Positions 1-12,457 of a stretch of 46,290 bases of DNA are shown here, one piece after another. The number at the start of each line of letters is the position of its first letter. Position 1 is the first letter of the stretch. The notes under the pieces were generated by a model. It was not told the origin of the DNA and made no database searches. It saw only the letters and a list, made by a program, of their open reading frames with translations. The position numbers and the translations under genes were made by a program. The stretch comes from Verrucomicrobiota bacterium. GTDB taxonomy: Bacteria > Verrucomicrobiota > Verrucomicrobiia > Opitutales > UBA2995. The DNA lies in assembly GCA_027622555.1 (NCBI GenBank), contig JAQBYJ010000035.1, positions 1 through 46,290 on the forward strand. The letters run 5' to 3'.

Positions 1-14
1 AACTCCTCGGACTT

Positions 15-71
15 GTTCAACAAAGGACATAGATCATGCTACGATGATCTACGATCCTTTAACTGTTAGCC
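15..71 (-). other. attC recombination site of integron cassette 1
   Basis: This 57-bp imperfect palindrome closes the cassette that carries the lipoprotein gene. Read on the minus strand it starts with the box GGCTAAC (71-65) and ends with GTTGAAC (21-15), which fits the R' consensus GTTRRRY. Between them a stem pairs 22-27 with 55-60 and 30-37 with 44-51 around a 6-nt loop (38-43), with an unequal internal bulge (2 against 3 nt) like the extrahelical bases of attC sites. The R'' box GGCTAAC is the exact reverse complement of GTTAGCC at the 5' end of the same cassette (441-435), as expected for a cassette that once circularised. The lipoprotein stop codon lies inside the site. Confidence 0.82.
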
Positions 72-430
72 TGTTCGTATGGTAGTACGGTGATCGGAGG
101 AAGATTTAACTTCCTACGCGCTTCAGGAAAATCTCTCCATACCCTTTCATAATATTCTTTTGATTGATTTTCTCTTATCCATTCCATCCTACCTATCCAG
201 TATTCTCGGTAAGTTCCCCAAGCAGGGGGACATGGAACTCCTTCTACTTCATCTTTTAAAATATCCGAAAACATTGAAATACTGATTTCCGCCGATGGGC
301 CTCCTGGATGGGCGCTGGCGACATCAGTTCCGCTCACAGTATCTTGTGGGAGTATCCGCAACCATTCGCAACCTGCAAAAAATGTACAGATTGGAATCAA
401 TAGTAGGATGACTGGGATAGATCTGATCAT
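59..430 (-). CDS. Predicted lipoprotein, gene of integron cassette 1
   Basis: The 123-residue product begins with a hydrophobic signal and a lipobox (FAGC, Cys21), so it should be exported and lipid-anchored. The mature part is hydrophilic, with a Trp/Tyr/Arg-rich region (about residues 65-105) and a Pro-rich tail. No family was recognised. The ATG lies only 10 bp inside the cassette boundary (G441/T440) and no Shine-Dalgarno sequence precedes it. The stop codon falls inside the attC. Compact design, lack of a promoter and orientation away from the integrase fragment are all typical of integron cassette genes. Expression would depend on a promoter upstream of the array. The function is unknown. 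Confidence 0.75.
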   Translation of the reverse strand: MIRSIPVILLLIPICTFFAGCEWLRILPQDTVSGTDVASAHPGGPSAEISISMFSDILKDEVEGVPCPPAWGTYREYWIGRMEWIRENQSKEYYERVWRDFPEARRKLNLPPITVLPYEQANS

Positions 431-434
431 TTTC

Positions 435-507
435 GGCTAACGCTAAGCGTATGAAAGGAGTAAGCGAAGAATGAGCTTACGCAATTTCATACCGCGCCTT
501 GTTGTGT
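435..507 (-). other. attC recombination site of integron cassette 2
   Basis: On the minus strand the 73-bp site runs from ACACAAC (507-501) to GTTAGCC (441-435). Its arms pair 447-449 with 493-495, 450-456 with 485-491, and 460-465 with 475-480 around a 9-nt loop (466-474), 16 bp in all. There is one single-base bulge (492) and a 3 by 4 internal loop, the sort of asymmetry that attC recombination uses for strand choice. ACACAAC is the exact reverse complement of GTTGTGT at the other end of this cassette (930-924). The stop codon of the membrane-protein gene lies inside the site. Confidence 0.85.
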
Positions 508-915
508 TCCGGTTGCTTGGAGTGCATATAAAAGGAGGAATCCGAGGGATACTAGAAAAGCTAAGTAGAATACTCGGAAAACGAGTTTGTCGCTCTTCGA
601 AAGAACTGGAATTGCAATGGCTTCTATTAGATCGGGATGAACGCCAGATCCTGCATTGGCAGCCACAAGCCGGCTTAATAATCTTTCGGAAACCACAGAC
701 TCTCGAAGCAAGAGTAGAGTCCCTAGAAACACACTCAAAAATAAAGAAATTAGACACGCCCGAAATGACCAGATCGGAGCACCTATAAAGTTGGAATGAA
801 ACGTAATCAACACAGTGAATGCTCCTATCGAAAGGCCGGTTACGTACCTGATCCAAGAGAACTTCGCTCTAAACGCTTCTCTTCCGACTGTGTTTATGGC
901 ATCGATCTCTTTCAT
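487..915 (-). CDS. Small membrane protein, gene of integron cassette 2
   Basis: The 142-residue product has three likely transmembrane segments (about residues 23-40, 51-70 and 111-132). A short charged N-terminus and a soluble loop (about 71-110) separate the second and third. No family was recognised. The ATG is 8 nt inside the cassette boundary at 929/930 with no clear ribosome-binding site, and the stop lies in the attC. It is the first cassette next to the attI-like site, the position usually best expressed from an integron promoter. A 137-residue reading in another frame on the same strand overlaps it, but only this frame gives clean membrane segments and fits the cassette limits. Confidence 0.72.
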   Translation of the reverse strand: MKEIDAINTVGREAFRAKFSWIRYVTGLSIGAFTVLITFHSNFIGAPIWSFRACLISLFLSVFLGTLLLLRESVVSERLLSRLVAANAGSGVHPDLIEAIAIPVLSKSDKLVFRVFYLAFLVSLGFLLLYALQATGTQQGAV

Positions 916-923
916 TTTAATTC

Positions 924-970
924 ACACAACAGTTATATTAAGCGTAACTCAGCTACACATATTACGGTTG
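924..970 (-). other. attI-like insertion site of integron platform 1
   Basis: The first cassette begins at G930/T929 in GTTGTGT. Upstream on the minus strand there is no paired attC arm, so the junction looks like a non-palindromic attI. Three blocks, TATATTAAG (934-942), ACTCAG (947-952) and GGTTG (966-970) in plus-strand reading, recur with identical spacing at 11425-11461 beside the second integrase fragment. Position between a right-pointing integrase start and left-pointing cassettes is the standard integron layout. The exact extent of the site is a guess. Confidence 0.68.
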
Positions 971-1421
971 AGGGTAATCGAAATAAATAAGGTGTCATGA
1001 CTGGGGTTGACTTAATGTAGGTCTCAAAAAAACGGCAAGTCGAAAGTGAGTTCACTTTAATAAGCAAGGGGTTATGAATTCCATTTCCGTCGACCGGTAT
1101 GGAGAGGGCTGGAAAAAGAATCTTAAAAATGCTCTGACGCATCGCGAATATTGAACCGGAAAAAGCGTAACTCAGCGCGGGATCGAAACTGAGTTACGTA
1201 TATTCCGGAGAGAAAAGGGGCAAATATAAGGACGAGATCCTGGGGATTTAAGCTCTATGCCTACTGGTTCCAATGATAATACGAACCGATTATAAGAATA
1301 CGTTGATTGTTATGTCATTATTGATCTGCAGGTTAAGAAGAATAGTGAACATGCGTTCACTTTTTTATTGCCAATCAGACTTTTTAGGTTTGGTGTTTTT
1401 AGCGTTGTGAATATTAAAACC
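971..1421. other. Gene-free stretch between attI-like site and integrase fragment
   Basis: No credible gene was found in these 451 bases. The stretch should hold the integrase promoter and the cassette promoter, but no convincing sigma-70 pair was assigned. It contains a strong hairpin at 1156-1208. Near its right end, 1329-1380 resembles 11709-11772 upstream of the other integrase fragment (shared GTTCACT, TTTTATTGC and TCAGA blocks in the same order). Confidence 0.5.
1156..1208. repeat. Hairpin sharing a motif with the attI-like site
   Basis: CGTAACTCAG (1166-1175) pairs perfectly with CTGAGTTACG (1189-1198) across a 13-nt loop. An outer CCGGAA (1156-1161) pairs with TTCCGG (1203-1208) across a 4 by 4 internal loop. 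The segment AGCGTAACTCAGC (1164-1176) also occurs at 941-953 inside the attI-like site. No GTTRRRY/RYYYAAC boxes flank it, so it is not called an attC. It could be an accessory recombinase site, a terminator-like hairpin or a decayed duplication. Confidence 0.6.
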
Positions 1422-1566
1422 ATGAAAAGCGAAAGTCGATTGTCCTTTCCAGAATGGGCGAATGCGTTGTTGGCCAGTGATCTGGAGGAAGGAAAGAAGA
1501 AAAGTTTTGGGATAACCATCCGCTGGTACCTGGGCTGGTGCAGGCGGAACAAGACGCAGGGGACGG
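1422..1566 (+). pseudogene. Integron integrase, N-terminal fragment (IntI-like)
   Basis: About 48 codons from the ATG at 1422 read as the start of an integron-type tyrosine recombinase. They include a FPEWANALLAS segment and the ITIRWYLGWCRR motif seen in the N-terminal (SAM-like) domain of environmental integron integrases. The similarity ends at about 1566, where a tandem GGGGACGGTAATG repeat begins. The core-binding remainder and the whole catalytic domain are missing, so it cannot recombine. It points away from the attI-like site and cassettes, as intI genes do. The family call is from remembered sequence patterns. Confidence 0.62.
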
Positions 1567-2184: not shown

Positions 2185-2652
2185 ATGGGATTTGCGGAAA
2201 TCAAAGAAAACGCCAAGGGCCTTTCGGAAAAAGAGCGAAGAGAGTTGGTTGCTTTTTTGGTGCACCTTGAACAATCGACGGATCCCGATTACCTGGACAG
2301 AATTACCCGGAAAATAGACGAAACGGAAAAGTTTGTCTGGTGGGATGACGTCAAGGGTGAGTTTAACGAAGACTTATGGGGGTCCTTTGAACTGCTGGTC
2401 CATTTGGAAGCACTGGAGACTCTTCGAAAGATACGAGGGGAAAATCGAAAACAAATCCGCCGATTCCTTTCCATACTGCCCACCAATCTCTATCTCCAGC
2501 CTGATACGACATTCGAGGACCGCAAGGGAAGGATCGTAAGTAAGGTACGTATTCGTAATTACATCCTTGAGTATATCATCGATGATCCCGTGCGGGAAAT
2601 AATTTTGCAGATCAGGTTTATTTGCCTATATCACTTGGCAATCGTAAAGTGA
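2185..2652 (+). CDS. Antitoxin and RelE/ParE-like toxin read as one fused ORF
   Basis: From the ATG at 2185 the frame encodes about 155 residues. Residues 1-63 resemble small helical antitoxins (GFAEIKENAKGLSEKERREL, then RKIDETEKFVWWDDV). From about residue 66 the sequence turns into a RelE/ParE-like mRNA-interferase or gyrase-toxin fold (FELLVHLEALETLRKIRG, then RIVSKVRIRNYILEYII). These are normally two overlapping genes. At the junction an ATG followed by a G-run (2376-2382) is out of frame, and losing one G would give a separate toxin start, so a single-base slip is a plausible cause of the fusion. The C-terminus overlaps the convergent vapC end and may be altered. Catalytic residues were not assigned and activity is uncertain. 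Confidence 0.6.
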   Translation: MGFAEIKENAKGLSEKERRELVAFLVHLEQSTDPDYLDRITRKIDETEKFVWWDDVKGEFNEDLWGSFELLVHLEALETLRKIRGENRKQIRRFLSILPTNLYLQPDTTFEDRKGRIVSKVRIRNYILEYIIDDPVREIILQIRFICLYHLAIVK

Positions 2653-2997
2653 GAACTGGCGGTCATCCGTTACAATCGGAATCCCACGGGCTTTGCTTTG
2701 AGCAATCAACATACGGTCAAAGGGGTCTCGATGATGGAATGGCAAATCTTTCAAAGCCACCGCATCCTGACAACTAAAGTCCAGCATTTCGAAACCACTT
2801 CCGGTTATTTGTTCCAAGGGGTCAAAATCTATAACGAGTTTACCCAAAGAAGCCTTGATCATCATCTCCACCACGCAAACGGAACTCACGTAAACAATGT
2901 TTGCCAACGACTCAATTTCCGCCCGTTTCTCCTTTGCAATACGCTGAGGATCGGACAATCCCCACAGAAAAATATGCGTATCGAGGATCAGCTTCAT
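2626..2997 (-). CDS. vapC: VapC-like PIN-domain toxin ribonuclease
   Basis: The 123-residue protein has the PIN layout. The first acidic residue is in LDTHIFLW near the N-terminus, Glu lies in the SVCVVEMMIK helix, and Asp residues occur in HHRDPFDRMLIAQ and TDD near the C-terminus. These residues bind metal for RNA cleavage in the family. The subgroup with a THxxLW motif usually pairs with Phd-type antitoxins, as here. Its ATG overlaps the antitoxin stop by 4 bp (ATGA), implying translational coupling. Length is normal, so it may be functional. Its 3' end overlaps the convergent fused toxin ORF by 27 bp. Confidence 0.85.
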   Translation of the reverse strand: MKLILDTHIFLWGLSDPQRIAKEKRAEIESLANIVYVSSVCVVEMMIKASLGKLVIDFDPLEQITGSGFEMLDFSCQDAVALKDLPFHHRDPFDRMLIAQSKARGIPIVTDDRQFSLYDCQVI

Positions 2998-3227
2998 TTG
3001 TTTTTCCCATAAAACATTTCAAGAATATCCGGGTCTTCTTCAAAAAAATCCGCGGGCAAGGTGAACTTGCCTGCCAGCATGCCCAGCTTGCGCTTCCCCT
3101 TCGGTTTGTGAGGCACCAAATCCACAAGAGGAAGATTGTTTTTTGCAATCACCACTTCCTCTCCATGAAAGGCTTTATCGATGAGCTTCGATAGATTCGC
3201 TTTCGCTTCAGAAACATTGACTATCAT
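2994..3227 (-). CDS. Phd/YefM-family antitoxin paired with VapC
   Basis: The 77-residue protein starts VNVSEAKANLSKLIDKAF and continues EEVVIAKNNLPLVDLVP, the standard N-terminal DNA-binding fold of Phd/YefM antitoxins. The acidic C-terminal tail (DFFEEDPDILEMF) is the usual toxin-wrapping segment. It should neutralise the downstream VapC and repress the operon. A good ribosome-binding site (AAAGGAG) lies 6-7 nt before the ATG. Paired 9-bp repeats upstream are a likely operator. Confidence 0.87.
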   Translation of the reverse strand: MIVNVSEAKANLSKLIDKAFHGEEVVIAKNNLPLVDLVPHKPKGKRKLGMLAGKFTLPADFFEEDPDILEMFYGKNK

Positions 3228-3283: not shown

Positions 3284-3350
3284 AACTATATAAACGGTTT
3301 CGGAAAACTGTTAATTCCGGTGCCCTGGCCGTAGGGAACCCATGCTTGAG

Positions 3351-3532
3351 AAAGTCAGAACAAAAACAGGGCCAATGTTCATATCTCATATTGCTGTATT
3401 GATTACAAAACGGGCGCGATCTCAAGGTAGCTTTCCCTGAACCGTTTTCTTCAGGGTTCCTTTGAACCGGGCGGTGTCGCCCTGGTCGTGCATCCATTGA
3501 TCGAGCTCGACGCGGAATTGACCCAGGGTGGC
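3351..3532. repeat. Intact-locus copy of the duplicated sulfatase tail
   Basis: This copy overlaps the end of the complete sulfatase gene and ~60 bp beyond its stop. It is the partner of 1617-1793. The two direct copies enclose both toxin-antitoxin modules, so recombination between them would delete those modules. Confidence 0.85.
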
Positions 3533-4918
3533 GGTATGGCGGGGATCGCCCGCCAGGTTGACCTGTTCTGCGGGATCTTCGGTCAGGTGATAGAGTTCCT
3601 CGGCGGGTCGCCAGTAATAGCGTTGCACCACGCGGGCCGCGCCGGGGTCGGATTGGGCCTTCTCCAGCCAACTGTCGAAATACTGGTCAGAGGTCACCTG
3701 GTCAATATGGGTGGTGTGGGCATGGCTGGGAAACAGGTTGCGGATATACTTCCATTCCTCCGTTCGCACTGACCGGATGGGATAGACATTGGCGTCGCCG
3801 GTTTTTTGCCCGGCATCCTCGGTATGGGTGGTAAAGATGCGGTCCCGATGGGACGTTTTTTCGCCCCGCAAGACCCCGGCGAATGAGGCCCCGTCCAGGT
3901 TTTGGGGTGGCGGTTCTCCGGCGACTTCCACCAAGGTGGGCAGGATGTCGGTCCAGTTGACGAAGGCATCGGTACGGGAGCCGGCCTTGATCTTCTCTTT
4001 CCAGACCACGATCATGGGAACATGAATGCCCTCATCATAAAGATTCCATTTCGCAAAGGGCCATTGGGCGCCATGGTCGGAGGTCTGCAAGATGAAGGTG
4101 TCGTCCCCCAGAACAGCGTCCACCGTGTCGAGCACCTTCCCGAAATCGCGGTCCATCTGGTCAACGGCCCCCAGATAATTGGCCCGCCAGGCCCGGGTCT
4201 CCGGCGTATCCACATGCTCGGGAGGAATTCTTATGTCGGCCGCCTGCCACCGGTGACCCTCCTGGGGCCAGGGCGTATGCGGCCAGTTGGTTCCGACGAA
4301 CAAGGCCAGGGGCCGCTCGTCCCGCCGCCCGCGCAGCCAGTCAACCGCCGCATCGATACAGACATCGTCATGAAAGCCGGTGTGCTCAAAATGTTCGAAT
4401 CCATAGAGCTTGGTCTGCAGATAATGCCCCACTTTTCCGAAGGCCACCACCTGGTAACCCAGCTCCTGCAAATACGATGGAAGCTTTCGAATATAGGCAT
4501 GCGGAGCCTGATGGTTGGATTCCGCACCATGCCGGGCCGGCATCAACCCGGTGAGCAGGCTGGCCCGATCCGAGGCGCAGCTCGGCGAGGCCACAAAGGC
4601 CCGGTTAAAAGTCATGCCCGCCCGTGCCAGCCGGTCCATGTTCGGCGTCGGGACCTGTGAAGCGCTATAAACCGTACTGTCCCGCAGGCTGTGGTCATCG
4701 GACAGAAGCACCACGATATTGGGCCGGTCCGTCGCGCCCAGAAGCGCGCCCGTTTTCATAAAACCTGAGGCCACCATGAGAACGCCAACAAGGAAGGATA
4801 TTTTTAACGGCCTAGCTGCAGAGGTGGGGGTCTTCCTACTTTGATTAAGTGTTCTTAGAGGACAACTAGGTTTCGTATCCTGCCCGCTTTTCTGCCTGAC
4901 CTTTAGATTTTTAATCAT
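3422..4918 (-). CDS. Sulfatase (alkaline phosphatase superfamily) with an atypical formylglycine motif
   Basis: The 498-residue enzyme should hydrolyse sulfate esters, probably of a polysaccharide. Metal-binding Asp pair D74-D75 (LLSDDHS), D281-H282 (TSDHGAQ), K162 and K290 fit the arylsulfatase/sulfamidase fold. The nucleophile region is SPSCASDRASLLTG. C114 is where formylglycine forms, but the usual C-x-P-S-R is C-A-S-D-R here. A hydrophobic stretch at ~40-60 suggests export. The long N-terminus before it is AT-richer and poorly supported as coding, so the true start may lie downstream. The body of the gene is visibly richer in G+C than its neighbours, consistent with transfer. No anaerobic or aerobic maturase gene is nearby. 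Confidence 0.88.
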   Translation of the reverse strand: MIKNLKVRQKSGQDTKPSCPLRTLNQSRKTPTSAARPLKISFLVGVLMVASGFMKTGALLGATDRPNIVVLLSDDHSLRDSTVYSASQVPTPNMDRLARAGMTFNRAFVASPSCASDRASLLTGLMPARHGAESNHQAPHAYIRKLPSYLQELGYQVVAFGKVGHYLQTKLYGFEHFEHTGFHDDVCIDAAVDWLRGRRDERPLALFVGTNWPHTPWPQEGHRWQAADIRIPPEHVDTPETRAWRANYLGAVDQMDRDFGKVLDTVDAVLGDDTFILQTSDHGAQWPFAKWNLYDEGIHVPMIVVWKEKIKAGSRTDAFVNWTDILPTLVEVAGEPPPQNLDGASFAGVLRGEKTSHRDRIFTTHTEDAGQKTGDANVYPIRSVRTEEWKYIRNLFPSHAHTTHIDQVTSDQYFDSWLEKAQSDPGAARVVQRYYWRPAEELYHLTEDPAEQVNLAGDPRHTATLGQFRVELDQWMHDQGDTARFKGTLKKTVQGKLP

Positions 4919-8352: not shown

Positions 8353-9357
8353 GGAAAAGGGGTCAGCCCTTGATGTTTGGTGTCGAGTTAACATGACGGC
8401 TGACGTTGCTTGGATCTCCCATGTTTAAGCGGCGGGCAATCCAGGGATTGCTTGCGCTGGTTTTACTTCTTAGTTCTTTTGCGAGTTCAATTTTCCAAGT
8501 GGCTGACTTCTTGTCTTGCGACACCTGCTGTTCTGTCTTTCGGTGCTTCCGAATCCATTTGGAAACCAGTGTTTCGTGGGTCAGTTCGTTCAACTCCCGG
8601 AGCTCCCTTCCTCCCCAGTCCTTGGCGGCTTCCATTTTTTTGAAATCTTTATGCAGTTCTTTCTTATAGTCCTCAGTCGCAATCGCCCAACCACGCAGGT
8701 ATTTCTTTTGCATTTCAGTTTTTTTGCGCGGATCTCCTTCTTCCTGCAGATGTAGTAACTTTTCGTATTGGCGAATGCCTGAAAGGTTATCAGGCAAATT
8801 ACATTCAGACAAAAACCCGCCGCGAACCAGTGGAGGCATGACGGAACGCTTGAATAATTTGGGATAGCTGGAGAGAGAAAATTGCTTCAACTGGTCGACG
8901 CCCAGAAGTTTGGCTCTTACCGGATTCAGGTGAATGTAGTTGACCAGTCCCAGCAAAGAACGTCCGGGCTCGACAAGAAGTGCTTTGTAGCGTCCCTGGA
9001 AAACATGGCCTTGCTCCCCTGTGAATTTATTAAATCGATTGCCGAAGGTGCCCTGAAGCCAACGCATACCTTCAACCAGGTTTCCAAGGGGAGTCTCCAG
9101 GGCCAAATGGTAGTGGTTGCTCATGATGACATAAGCGTGTAATTTCCACCCCCAACGCGCGCAGACTTCAAAGATCGCTTTTTCAAACTGCTCCCCAGTC
9201 TTCCCAATGGTAAACAGGTCCTTTCGATAGTTCCCTCTTGAGATCACATGATACAACGCTCCGCGGTATTGAATGCGAGGTTTACGAGCCATAACGCCAA
9301 TCCAATCGAACTAGAGAAAGGCGTTAATACCAAACATCAAGGGCTGATCCTTTCCCC
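8353..9357 (-). mobile_element. RAYT element with terminal inverted repeats
   Basis: The shared core TCAGCCCTTGATGTTTGGT occurs at 8363-8381 and, inverted, in 9329-9347. Both repeats extend outward through purine-rich runs (GGAAAAGGGG on the left, GGGGAAAGGA inverted on the right). They enclose one transposase gene. The left end truncates an SDR gene and the right end truncates an IS481-like element. The intact gene suggests this is the youngest of the nested insertions. Confidence 0.75.
8363..9292 (-). CDS. REP-associated tyrosine transposase (RAYT, Y1/HUH family)
   Basis: The 309-residue protein starts MARKPRIQYRGALYHVISRG, the common RAYT N-terminus. It has the HUH metal motif in SNHYHLALETP, the candidate catalytic tyrosine in FQGRYKALLVEP, and the YIHLNPVRA motif. 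RAYTs cut single-stranded REP hairpins and are usually single-copy domesticated relatives of IS200/IS605 transposases. The C-terminal ~120 residues are a basic extension ending in residues encoded by the terminal repeat itself. Here the gene is bracketed by inverted repeats and sits on the breakpoint of two other genes, so it behaves like a mobile element. Confidence 0.9.
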   Translation of the reverse strand: MARKPRIQYRGALYHVISRGNYRKDLFTIGKTGEQFEKAIFEVCARWGWKLHAYVIMSNHYHLALETPLGNLVEGMRWLQGTFGNRFNKFTGEQGHVFQGRYKALLVEPGRSLLGLVNYIHLNPVRAKLLGVDQLKQFSLSSYPKLFKRSVMPPLVRGGFLSECNLPDNLSGIRQYEKLLHLQEEGDPRKKTEMQKKYLRGWAIATEDYKKELHKDFKKMEAAKDWGGRELRELNELTHETLVSKWIRKHRKTEQQVSQDKKSATWKIELAKELRSKTSASNPWIARRLNMGDPSNVSRHVNSTPNIKG

Positions 9358-10195
9358 CTCGGCACTGCGCCGATAGATTGCGCGAGGGCGGCTGGGTGGC
9401 TTCTGCTTTCAGATCGCGATGCATGCGCTCATGGGAGCCGTTTTCATGCGGAGAGGCGGGTGTCATAAACTCCACTTGTATGCCCTGTTCTATCCACCAT
9501 ACGCTCAGCTGCGACAAGCCTCCCAAGGCGATGGAGGCAAATGGCGTGCCATTGTCCACGCGAATGATATCGGGCTGGCCATGGTGACGCATCAGCTTTT
9601 TACATAGGCGAAACGTGCCCTTGAATTGCTGGTTGGCGCAGGCATGACATCCAACCACATAACGACTGTAGCGGTCGCACACTGTAAACGGATCGCAGCG
9701 CTGGCCATCTTGCAGGATGAACCAGCCCTTGAAATCGAAAGTCCATACTTCGTTCGGCCGCGTCGGCTCGGTCAGATGCTCTGGGTGGACCCGATACACA
9801 CCCGCCTTACGCTTGCGCTTCTGGCTCAGACCGTGGCGACTGAGGACCAAGGCAATGGTGCTTTCGTGGGGCGGGCGATCGATGCCATGAATCTTTATCA
9901 ATAGATCGCGGAGCTTCTTCGGCCCCCAGGTCGGATGCTTCCGACGCTCCTTGAGTATCAGCTTCTCAACTCCATCAGCCGTCGTACTCGGACAATGCTT
10001 CGGACGGCGGCTGCGCTCCTTCAAGCCCTCCCGGCCTTCCGCTTCATAGCGCAATAGATACTTGTGACCGGTCTTTCGACTGATCCCAAAGTCCGTACAT
10101 AAACTACTGATCGTAAAACGGCCCGTCTGGGCCAAGGTAACAAATCGCTCTTTTTCGGTCATCGGTTCGGTTTCTTTCCAAGGCATAAGTGCCAA
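9311..10195 (-). pseudogene. IS481-like DDE transposase, 3' truncated
   Basis: The reading frame encodes 294 residues. An N-terminal helix-turn-helix part (RFTISSLCTDFGISRKTGHKY) is followed by an rve integrase core with D in WTFDFKG, D in VDNGTPF and E in NGSHERMHRD, so the DDE triad is present. About the last 20 residues come from the terminal repeat of the adjacent RAYT element, and the normal C-terminal ~50 or more residues are lost. Its transposase activity is doubtful, and the element lacks one end, so it should be immobile. Confidence 0.85.
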
Positions 10196-10290: not shown

Positions 10291-10821
10291 ATTGAGGCCA
10301 AGCTCAAATTGAAGGTGAACCAGGAAAAGAGCCAAGTGGTTAAAGCCCCCCAGCTCGAATTCCTAGGGTTTGCATTCAAAGGCAAACGAATCGTGTGGAG
10401 TGCCAAGTCACTGCACTCGTTCAAATACCGTATCCTTAAGCTAACGAGTCGAAGCTTGGGTGTATCCATGAAATGGCGACTAATGAAGCTTACGCAATAC
10501 ATGCGTGGGTGGATGGGTTACTATGGAATAAGTCACACCTACAAAGTGGTTCTTAGTCTGGATAGTTGGATACGGCGTCGTTTGCGTTGTTGTTATTGGA
10601 AGCAGTGGAAGACAATCAGTAACCGAATCCGCAATCTGATGAAACTGGGGATAGGTCGCAGAAATGCGACTCTCCATGGAGTCTCGGGTAAGGGTTGCTG
10701 GGTAATGTCTAAAACTCCTGTCATTAATGAAGCACTCTCCTCAGACTGGTTAAGCAACCAAGGATTATTATCTCTTAAAACATTGTGGATTCATATCCAT
10801 TATCCAACTACGGTTCGATAG
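10291..10821 (+). pseudogene. Group II intron reverse transcriptase/maturase, C-terminal fragment
   Basis: The open frame from about 10291 encodes the end of an intron-encoded protein. It starts just before the thumb (AKLKLKVNQEKSQV, then EFLGFAFKG) and continues into the maturase domain (LTQYMRGWMGYYGI, then DSWIRRRLRCCYWKQWK), ending with LLSLKTLWI. The seven RT palm/finger blocks, including YADD, are gone. The fragment abuts the IS481 remnant on its left, so the 5' intron was removed when or after that element arrived. Confidence 0.88.
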
Positions 10822-11798: not shown

Positions 11799-12457
11799 AT
11801 GAAGCAACACTTGGTTCGGGTAAAAGAGCTTTATAACAAGGATAGAGAAGCTGGTGTGCCTGGTGTGTATTTGCCTCCTGCCCTAGCCAGAAAATATCCG
11901 AAGGCGGGCGAGCAATGGATATGGCAGTGGGTGTTCCCAAGCCGTCAGCTTAGTAAAGATCCTCGGAGTGAGGTTGTGCGTCGGCATCATCTTACAAAAA
12001 CGCCTTATCAAAGACAAATTACTAAAGCTGCCCGACGTGCTGGGATTAACAAGCGGGTGACATCACATACTCTGCGACATAGTTATGCCACGCACTTACT
12101 GGAAAACGGTGTGGACATAAGCCTGCAGTTTTCACCGGATGTGTCCAAACAGGTAATAAATATTTAAGATAATGTAGTTTAAATGTACAATCTGAATGCT
12201 ACCTGTGGGTATATGGTTTAGACCCATCCTCGGGATGACATGCCGGTTGTTCCTCCCTCACGGCTGCGGTTACGCACAAAAGTGCGCGCCCTAACCTCTC
12301 CGTCGTCAAGCCCAACATCTCAACTCCGTGAAAACACCGGGCAGGAACGGTCCAGGAGCTACTCGGTCACAAATCCGTGGAGACTACCATGATCTACACT
12401 CACGTGATGGCCAAGCCGGGCATCGGAGTGCCCAGTCCGCTCGATGCGCTGGGATAA
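11799..12457 (+). pseudogene. Integron integrase, C-terminal half interrupted by a 224-bp element
   Basis: From the ATG at 11799 the frame encodes the distal catalytic domain of an IntI-type recombinase: [31 protein letters not shown], and [15 protein letters not shown] with the second catalytic His-x-x-Arg. After GVDI (12119) the frame is broken by an insert. It resumes at 12346 as [20 protein letters not shown], with the third His and the tyrosine nucleophile, and ends [12 protein letters not shown]. Joining 12121 to 12346 restores [13 protein letters not shown] exactly. The N-terminal ~200 residues, including the first catalytic Arg, are missing, so even the repaired gene is not functional. 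Confidence 0.88.
12122..12345. mobile_element. 224-bp MITE-like insertion in the integrase
   Basis: The insert starts CCTGCAGTTTTCACCGG (12122-12138) and ends CCGTGAAAACACCGGGCAGG (12326-12345). The ends are imperfect inverted repeats (CCTGC, a variable 2-6 nt, then TTTTCAC and GG). No protein is encoded. A small CGCAC/GTGCG hairpin lies around 12274-12287. No target-site duplication is evident. Its removal leaves a perfect coding joint, which defines both edges to the base. Confidence 0.72.

Follow-up and report, generated by a model that had tools for sequence, protein, structure and literature searches.

The DNA analyzed here (the window, 46,290 nucleotides) is contig 35 (C35), read from that contig's first base, of a Verrucomicrobiota genome assembled in 238 contigs and 6.0 Mb. 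The left edge of the window is a contig end, and the cassette array at this edge could extend only leftwards. The window opens, over its first kilobase, with the front part of a decayed chromosomal integron. Reading leftwards, we found a broken integrase gene, the side on which attI would lie, cassette 2 (first in the array) and cassette 1 (second); to the right, the array stops at the attI side and the dead integrase. This layout matches that of an integron.

Above the TIGR02249 cut-off, the genome has one intact integron integrase each on C59 and C60; there are also several fragments, of which two lie in the window. An N-terminal fragment of a broken integron integrase (IntI; 1419–1560, plus strand) was detected by tblastn with the C59 IntI (E = 1e-6), and C-terminal fragments (11799–12448, plus strand, comprising 11799–12119 and 12347–12448) were detected with TIGR02249 below the cut-off and by tblastn. 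The N-terminal fragment lies beside the array and diverges from it, as a non-working gene. From its place between the first cassette and the integrase, the region at 931–1340 (minus strand) is expected to hold attI; the covariance models described below found no attC there. A near-consensus promoter-like site facing the cassettes (ATGACA-18-TATAAT, 1289–1318, minus strand) is a candidate cassette promoter, and a candidate only, because such sites were no commoner in the region than in shuffles. A LexA-like palindrome, AGTGAACATGCGTTCACT (1344–1361), lies upstream of the integrase remnant, and related half-sites are present upstream of the intact intI genes on C59 and C60.

Other features were noted along the window and in related contigs. 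A PIN-domain toxin and Phd/YefM antitoxin pair lies at 2626–3227 on the minus strand, and the 3' end of a sulfatase gene appears by eye to be partly duplicated (1620–1800 and 3350–3560). Between the integrase fragments, a REP-associated Y1 transposase adjoins an IS481-like transposase (8363–10195); a group II intron maturase fragment (GIIM, 10309–10821) lies near the integrase remnant and is followed by what resembles, by eye, a group IIC-like intron end. Integrase C-terminal remnants at 12304–12447 and at the end of C106 (L040, 9857–10000) show 92% identity and have the same foreign junction just before the motif TVQELLGH; this would fit either duplication of one remnant or an element that targets this motif. 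On C59 (L038, 4188–5700), the intact integrase adjoins real cassettes, which by reading include RelE-like and BrnT/BrnA-like toxin-antitoxin genes.

Cassette 2 and its attC site

Cassette 2 occupies 441–929 on the minus strand, with the crossover between G930 and T929, and its open reading frame (487–915, minus strand) encodes a putative membrane protein of 142 aa. By direct reading, the minus-strand core GTTGTGT (930–924) has its exact reverse complement, ACACAAC, in the R'' box at 507–501. Likewise, GTTAGCC (441–435, minus strand) of cassette 1 has its exact reverse complement, GGCTAAC, at 71–65. The initial annotation had reported that each R'' box is complementary to the start of its own cassette, and this was confirmed for both. 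It had also taken such ends as the mark of cassettes that have moved, which claims too much. Among the GTTNNNN words of the window, 70 of 735 on the plus strand and 70 of 827 on the minus strand have an exact complement 200–1500 nt downstream; a single self-complementary match is thus an event of about 9% and is weak evidence for a cassette by itself.

The hairpin at 435–507 (minus strand; z = -2.0) was examined as an attC site in its own right. A regular expression for attC of this lineage was too strict and missed 435–507 itself, so that covariance models were used instead; a hand-made chain finder was too permissive to be of use. The cassette arrays of C59 and C117 have clear attC sites, and the first model (R1) was built on four of these. 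Over the whole window, R1 gave one match, at 435–507 on the minus strand (21.4 bits, E = 5.7e-4). R1 was then used to gather 22 attC sites from this genome and two congeners, from which a second model (R2) was built; none of the training sites of either model came from the window. Over the 46 kb, R2 matched 435–507 at its exact coordinates (28.4 bits, E = 7.9e-8) and gave no other significant match in the window. That is, the attC proposed at 435–507 was borne out by two models blind to the site. Cassette 2 combines an attC matched by a model of independent sites with an R'' box complementary to its own start, the latter weak alone, and on these sequence features it is a genuine integron cassette, as had been proposed. 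More cassette arrays with the same attC type are present in congeners G005 and G007, e.g., three sites each on G005:C225 and G007:C247.

The proteins of cassettes 1 and 2 matched no Pfam, NCBIfam or PHROGs family above the cut-off, and no relatives were found in plasmids or viral contigs; for the cassette 2 membrane protein, no PDB relative was found. Within these searches, the description of the cargo genes, reading frames of 142 and 123 aa, as unrecognized holds. No Rfam family reached the gathering threshold in the window, and the Rfam matches in 1–1400 were at chance level.

The transposon end at the left edge of the window

A second attC had been placed at 15–71. Hairpins exist at both sites as described, that at 15–71 with z = -4.1, but only one of them is an attC. 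With filters off, neither R1 nor R2 matched the minus strand of 15–71, and the plus strand scored 5.4 bits (E = 1.2) with one model and 6.1 bits (E = 0.37) with the other. A covariance search of the first kilobase, the check that the initial annotation had proposed, thus recovers 435–507 and leaves 15–71 unmatched, and the attC at 15–71 is abandoned.

Bases 1–67 of the window recur at the ends of C54 and C40, and 65 of them on C67; C68 has shorter copies, and C117 has a truncated internal copy. The C54 copy interrupts a TonB-receptor gene and the C40 copy a membrane-protein gene with intact relatives in congeners G004 and G007. Using the N-terminal half of the G004 protein as a query, we found C111, the end of which is the other end of the element. 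When the flanks from C111 and C40 were rejoined, they gave one 509-aa frame, exact and in frame, with no duplicated bases; the insertion thus lacks target duplication at the one site with both flanks. The alignment of the rejoined protein with its G004 relative (486 columns, 45% identity) runs across the junction. Because genes are broken on C54 and C40 and the C111 and C40 flanks rejoin exactly, the repeat is an inserted element. We had considered a species-wide attC repeat and dropped it, as the C54 and C40 copies interrupt ordinary genes.

The left-end sequence was then searched exactly in the genome collection, where it matched a single Verrucomicrobia contig and L083, a contig of an uncultured bacterium recorded as Gammaproteobacteria. 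Only the left-end pattern gave matches; a search of genome_contigs and viral_contigs with the hairpin pattern returned nothing. In L083 the element is complete: its 2,357 bp encode a tyrosine recombinase and an IS91 transposase and are bounded by the same left and right ends. The transposase matched NF033538 (E = 7e-107), as well as PF04986 and PF14319. Through the ends that it has in common with the L083 element, window 1–64 (plus strand) is identified by sequence as the right terminus of an IS91-family insertion sequence, the body of which is beyond the left contig end and the hairpin of which (22–60) had been read as part of an attC. That is, 15–71 is the transposon end plus the R'' box of cassette 1, not an attC. 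The initial annotation had overlooked both this transposon and the integrase remnant to the right of the array. An assembly artefact was dropped as an explanation, since both ends match the element of an independent genome. In the assembly of this genome, the transposase gene had no match and the content of the element is deduced from L083; the gene was probably lost from the assembly with a collapsed repeat contig of 2–3 kb.

Partial copies of the element were also observed. On C117 (L031, 430–810), a truncated right end lies in a cassette array, flanked by the 13-bp direct repeat AACAAGACGCTCC with the repeats about 340 bp apart. The ends of C67 and C68 (L029, 11818–11944; L030, 11871–11946) carry tandem partial right-end copies with periods of 62 and 43 bp, and on C67 the flank is also duplicated alongside them. 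On G005:C454 (L081, 1501–1536), the transposon left end is represented by its first 36 bases alone, beside a small gene.

Cassette 1 and the reading of the locus

Cassette 1 follows directly on the validated attC at 435–507. Its open reading frame (59–430, minus strand) starts 4 nt past the core and encodes a lipoprotein-like product of 123 aa with the lipobox FAGC. The stop codon is TAA at 61–59, inside the transposon, and the last codon and stop are now transposon-derived; the native end of the gene is hidden in this way, and the 123-aa product need not show it. At the 3' end of the cassette, the contig contains the R'' box GGCTAAC (65–71, minus strand) adjoining the transposon, and no attC; the GTT at 65–67 is also the target motif of the transposon. 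The far side of this transposon copy, with the rest of the cassette 1 attC, is outside the contig.

Cassette 1 might not be a cassette, with GGCTAAC at 65–71 matching GTTAGCC by chance, as about 9% of GTT words in the window do. However, the junction is fixed by the transposon and leaves four free bases, so that a match to the start of cassette 1 at this exact position would arise by chance about once in 256; the adjacent validated attC and the start of the reading frame just after the core also argue against coincidence, and we consider it unlikely. The agreement between its R'' box and its start, at a place set by the transposon junction, makes it very probable that cassette 1 is, or has been, a true cassette, the attC of which has been split by the transposon. 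Of the earlier claim for a genuine cassette at 21–440 with its own attC, the match to its own start stands and the attC at 15–71 does not.

The repeat itself might instead be an integron cassette scattered by the integrase into secondary GTT sites. It starts with TTGAAC, the exact complement GTTCAAC precedes its hairpin, and insertion between G and TT without duplication is compatible with the empty site. All eight right ends in the alignment run directly into GTT. The left end is preceded by G in C111 and C142, but by A in L083, rather than by the G expected from integrase cleavage; this agrees less well with a cassette inserted between G and TT than with a transposon whose target at the right end is GTT. 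Moreover, the attC models do not recognize the hairpin of the repeat, and an IS91 transposase gene is present in the complete relative. A dispersed cassette was dropped once this transposase was seen in L083, and we now regard it as highly improbable. Least credible of all are two intact cassettes with functional attC sites at 15–71 and 435–507, which would account for the AAC...GTT boxes, the hairpin and the R'' box complementing its own cassette start at both sites, but not for the missing minus-strand model match at 15–71 or for the recurrence of bases 1–67 in unrelated broken genes and at the end of an IS91 element.

We therefore favor, with a probability of about 90%, a decayed integron with a real attC at 435–507 and an IS91-family transposon that splits the attC of cassette 1. 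The window begins inside a chromosomal integron with a broken integrase gene. The first cassette (929–441), with a small putative membrane-protein gene, ends in the genuine attC at 507–435, and the second, from 440, with a lipoprotein-like gene, ends at the R'' box at 71–65. An integron integrase presumably inserted the cassettes, with decay of the local copy coming later, and the intact integrases on C59 and C60 could still work in trans. A transposon of about 2.4 kb would then have entered at the R'' box without target duplication, presumably by rolling-circle transposition, placing its right-end hairpin against GTT; with AAC on one side and GTT on the other, the transposon end imitates an attC. 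With its attC split, cassette 1 could no longer be excised cleanly.

Transposon copies in cassettes and comparison with known systems

Seven copies of the transposon were counted (C35, C54, C40/C111, C67, C68, C117 and C142), and three of them, unexpectedly many, lie in cassettes: those in the window, on C117 and on C67, where an attC lies about 45 bases before the copy. If cassettes make up 0.2–1% of the genome, as we assumed, the probability of three in seven by chance is 3e-7 to 3e-5; the count would be lower if any of the copies belonged to the same site as C142. It may simply be that insertions of the transposon into cassettes are tolerated. A working mimic is a very doubtful alternative: the attC-like terminus would be used by the integron integrase or by the tyrosine recombinase of the transposon, giving site-specific entry into arrays besides the transposase, and this would fit both the three copies in cassettes and the GTTGAAC/GTTCAAC complementarity of the two ends. 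Overall, the locus is an ordinary decayed integron with a transposon, in which the clustering of the transposon in cassettes is a small question of interest. It also shows that the hairpin of an IS91-type end, when it lies between AAC and GTT, can mimic an attC and suggest a false cassette end.

IS91 elements are well known, and members bearing a recombinase are also known. The relative in L083 has a transposase with the zinc-binding and Y2_Tnp domains of the IS91 family (NF033538), and the element resembles IS91 and ISCR elements in having two different ends with hairpin potential and, at the site tested, in lacking a target duplication. It differs in that a tyrosine recombinase gene precedes the transposase and in that the target motif here is GTT at the right end.

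Integrons have already been reported from Verrucomicrobiota (PMC8618304). Like chromosomal integrons, including those of Verrucomicrobiota, and CALINs (PMC8618304), the locus has an integrase gene and cassettes with attC in one orientation, the first on the integrase side, whereas the local integrase is fragmented and the attC of the second cassette is interrupted by a transposon. Group IIC-attC introns (PMC7923331) are likewise mobile elements placed in attC; here the element is of another class, it sits at the GTT of the R'' box, and attC sites account for a minority of its copies. Finally, attC sites have been reported at the ends of IS91-related ISCR28 elements (PMC12772301). These may be look-alikes of the kind seen in the window, and attC calls already published at IS91/ISCR ends may merit the same check.
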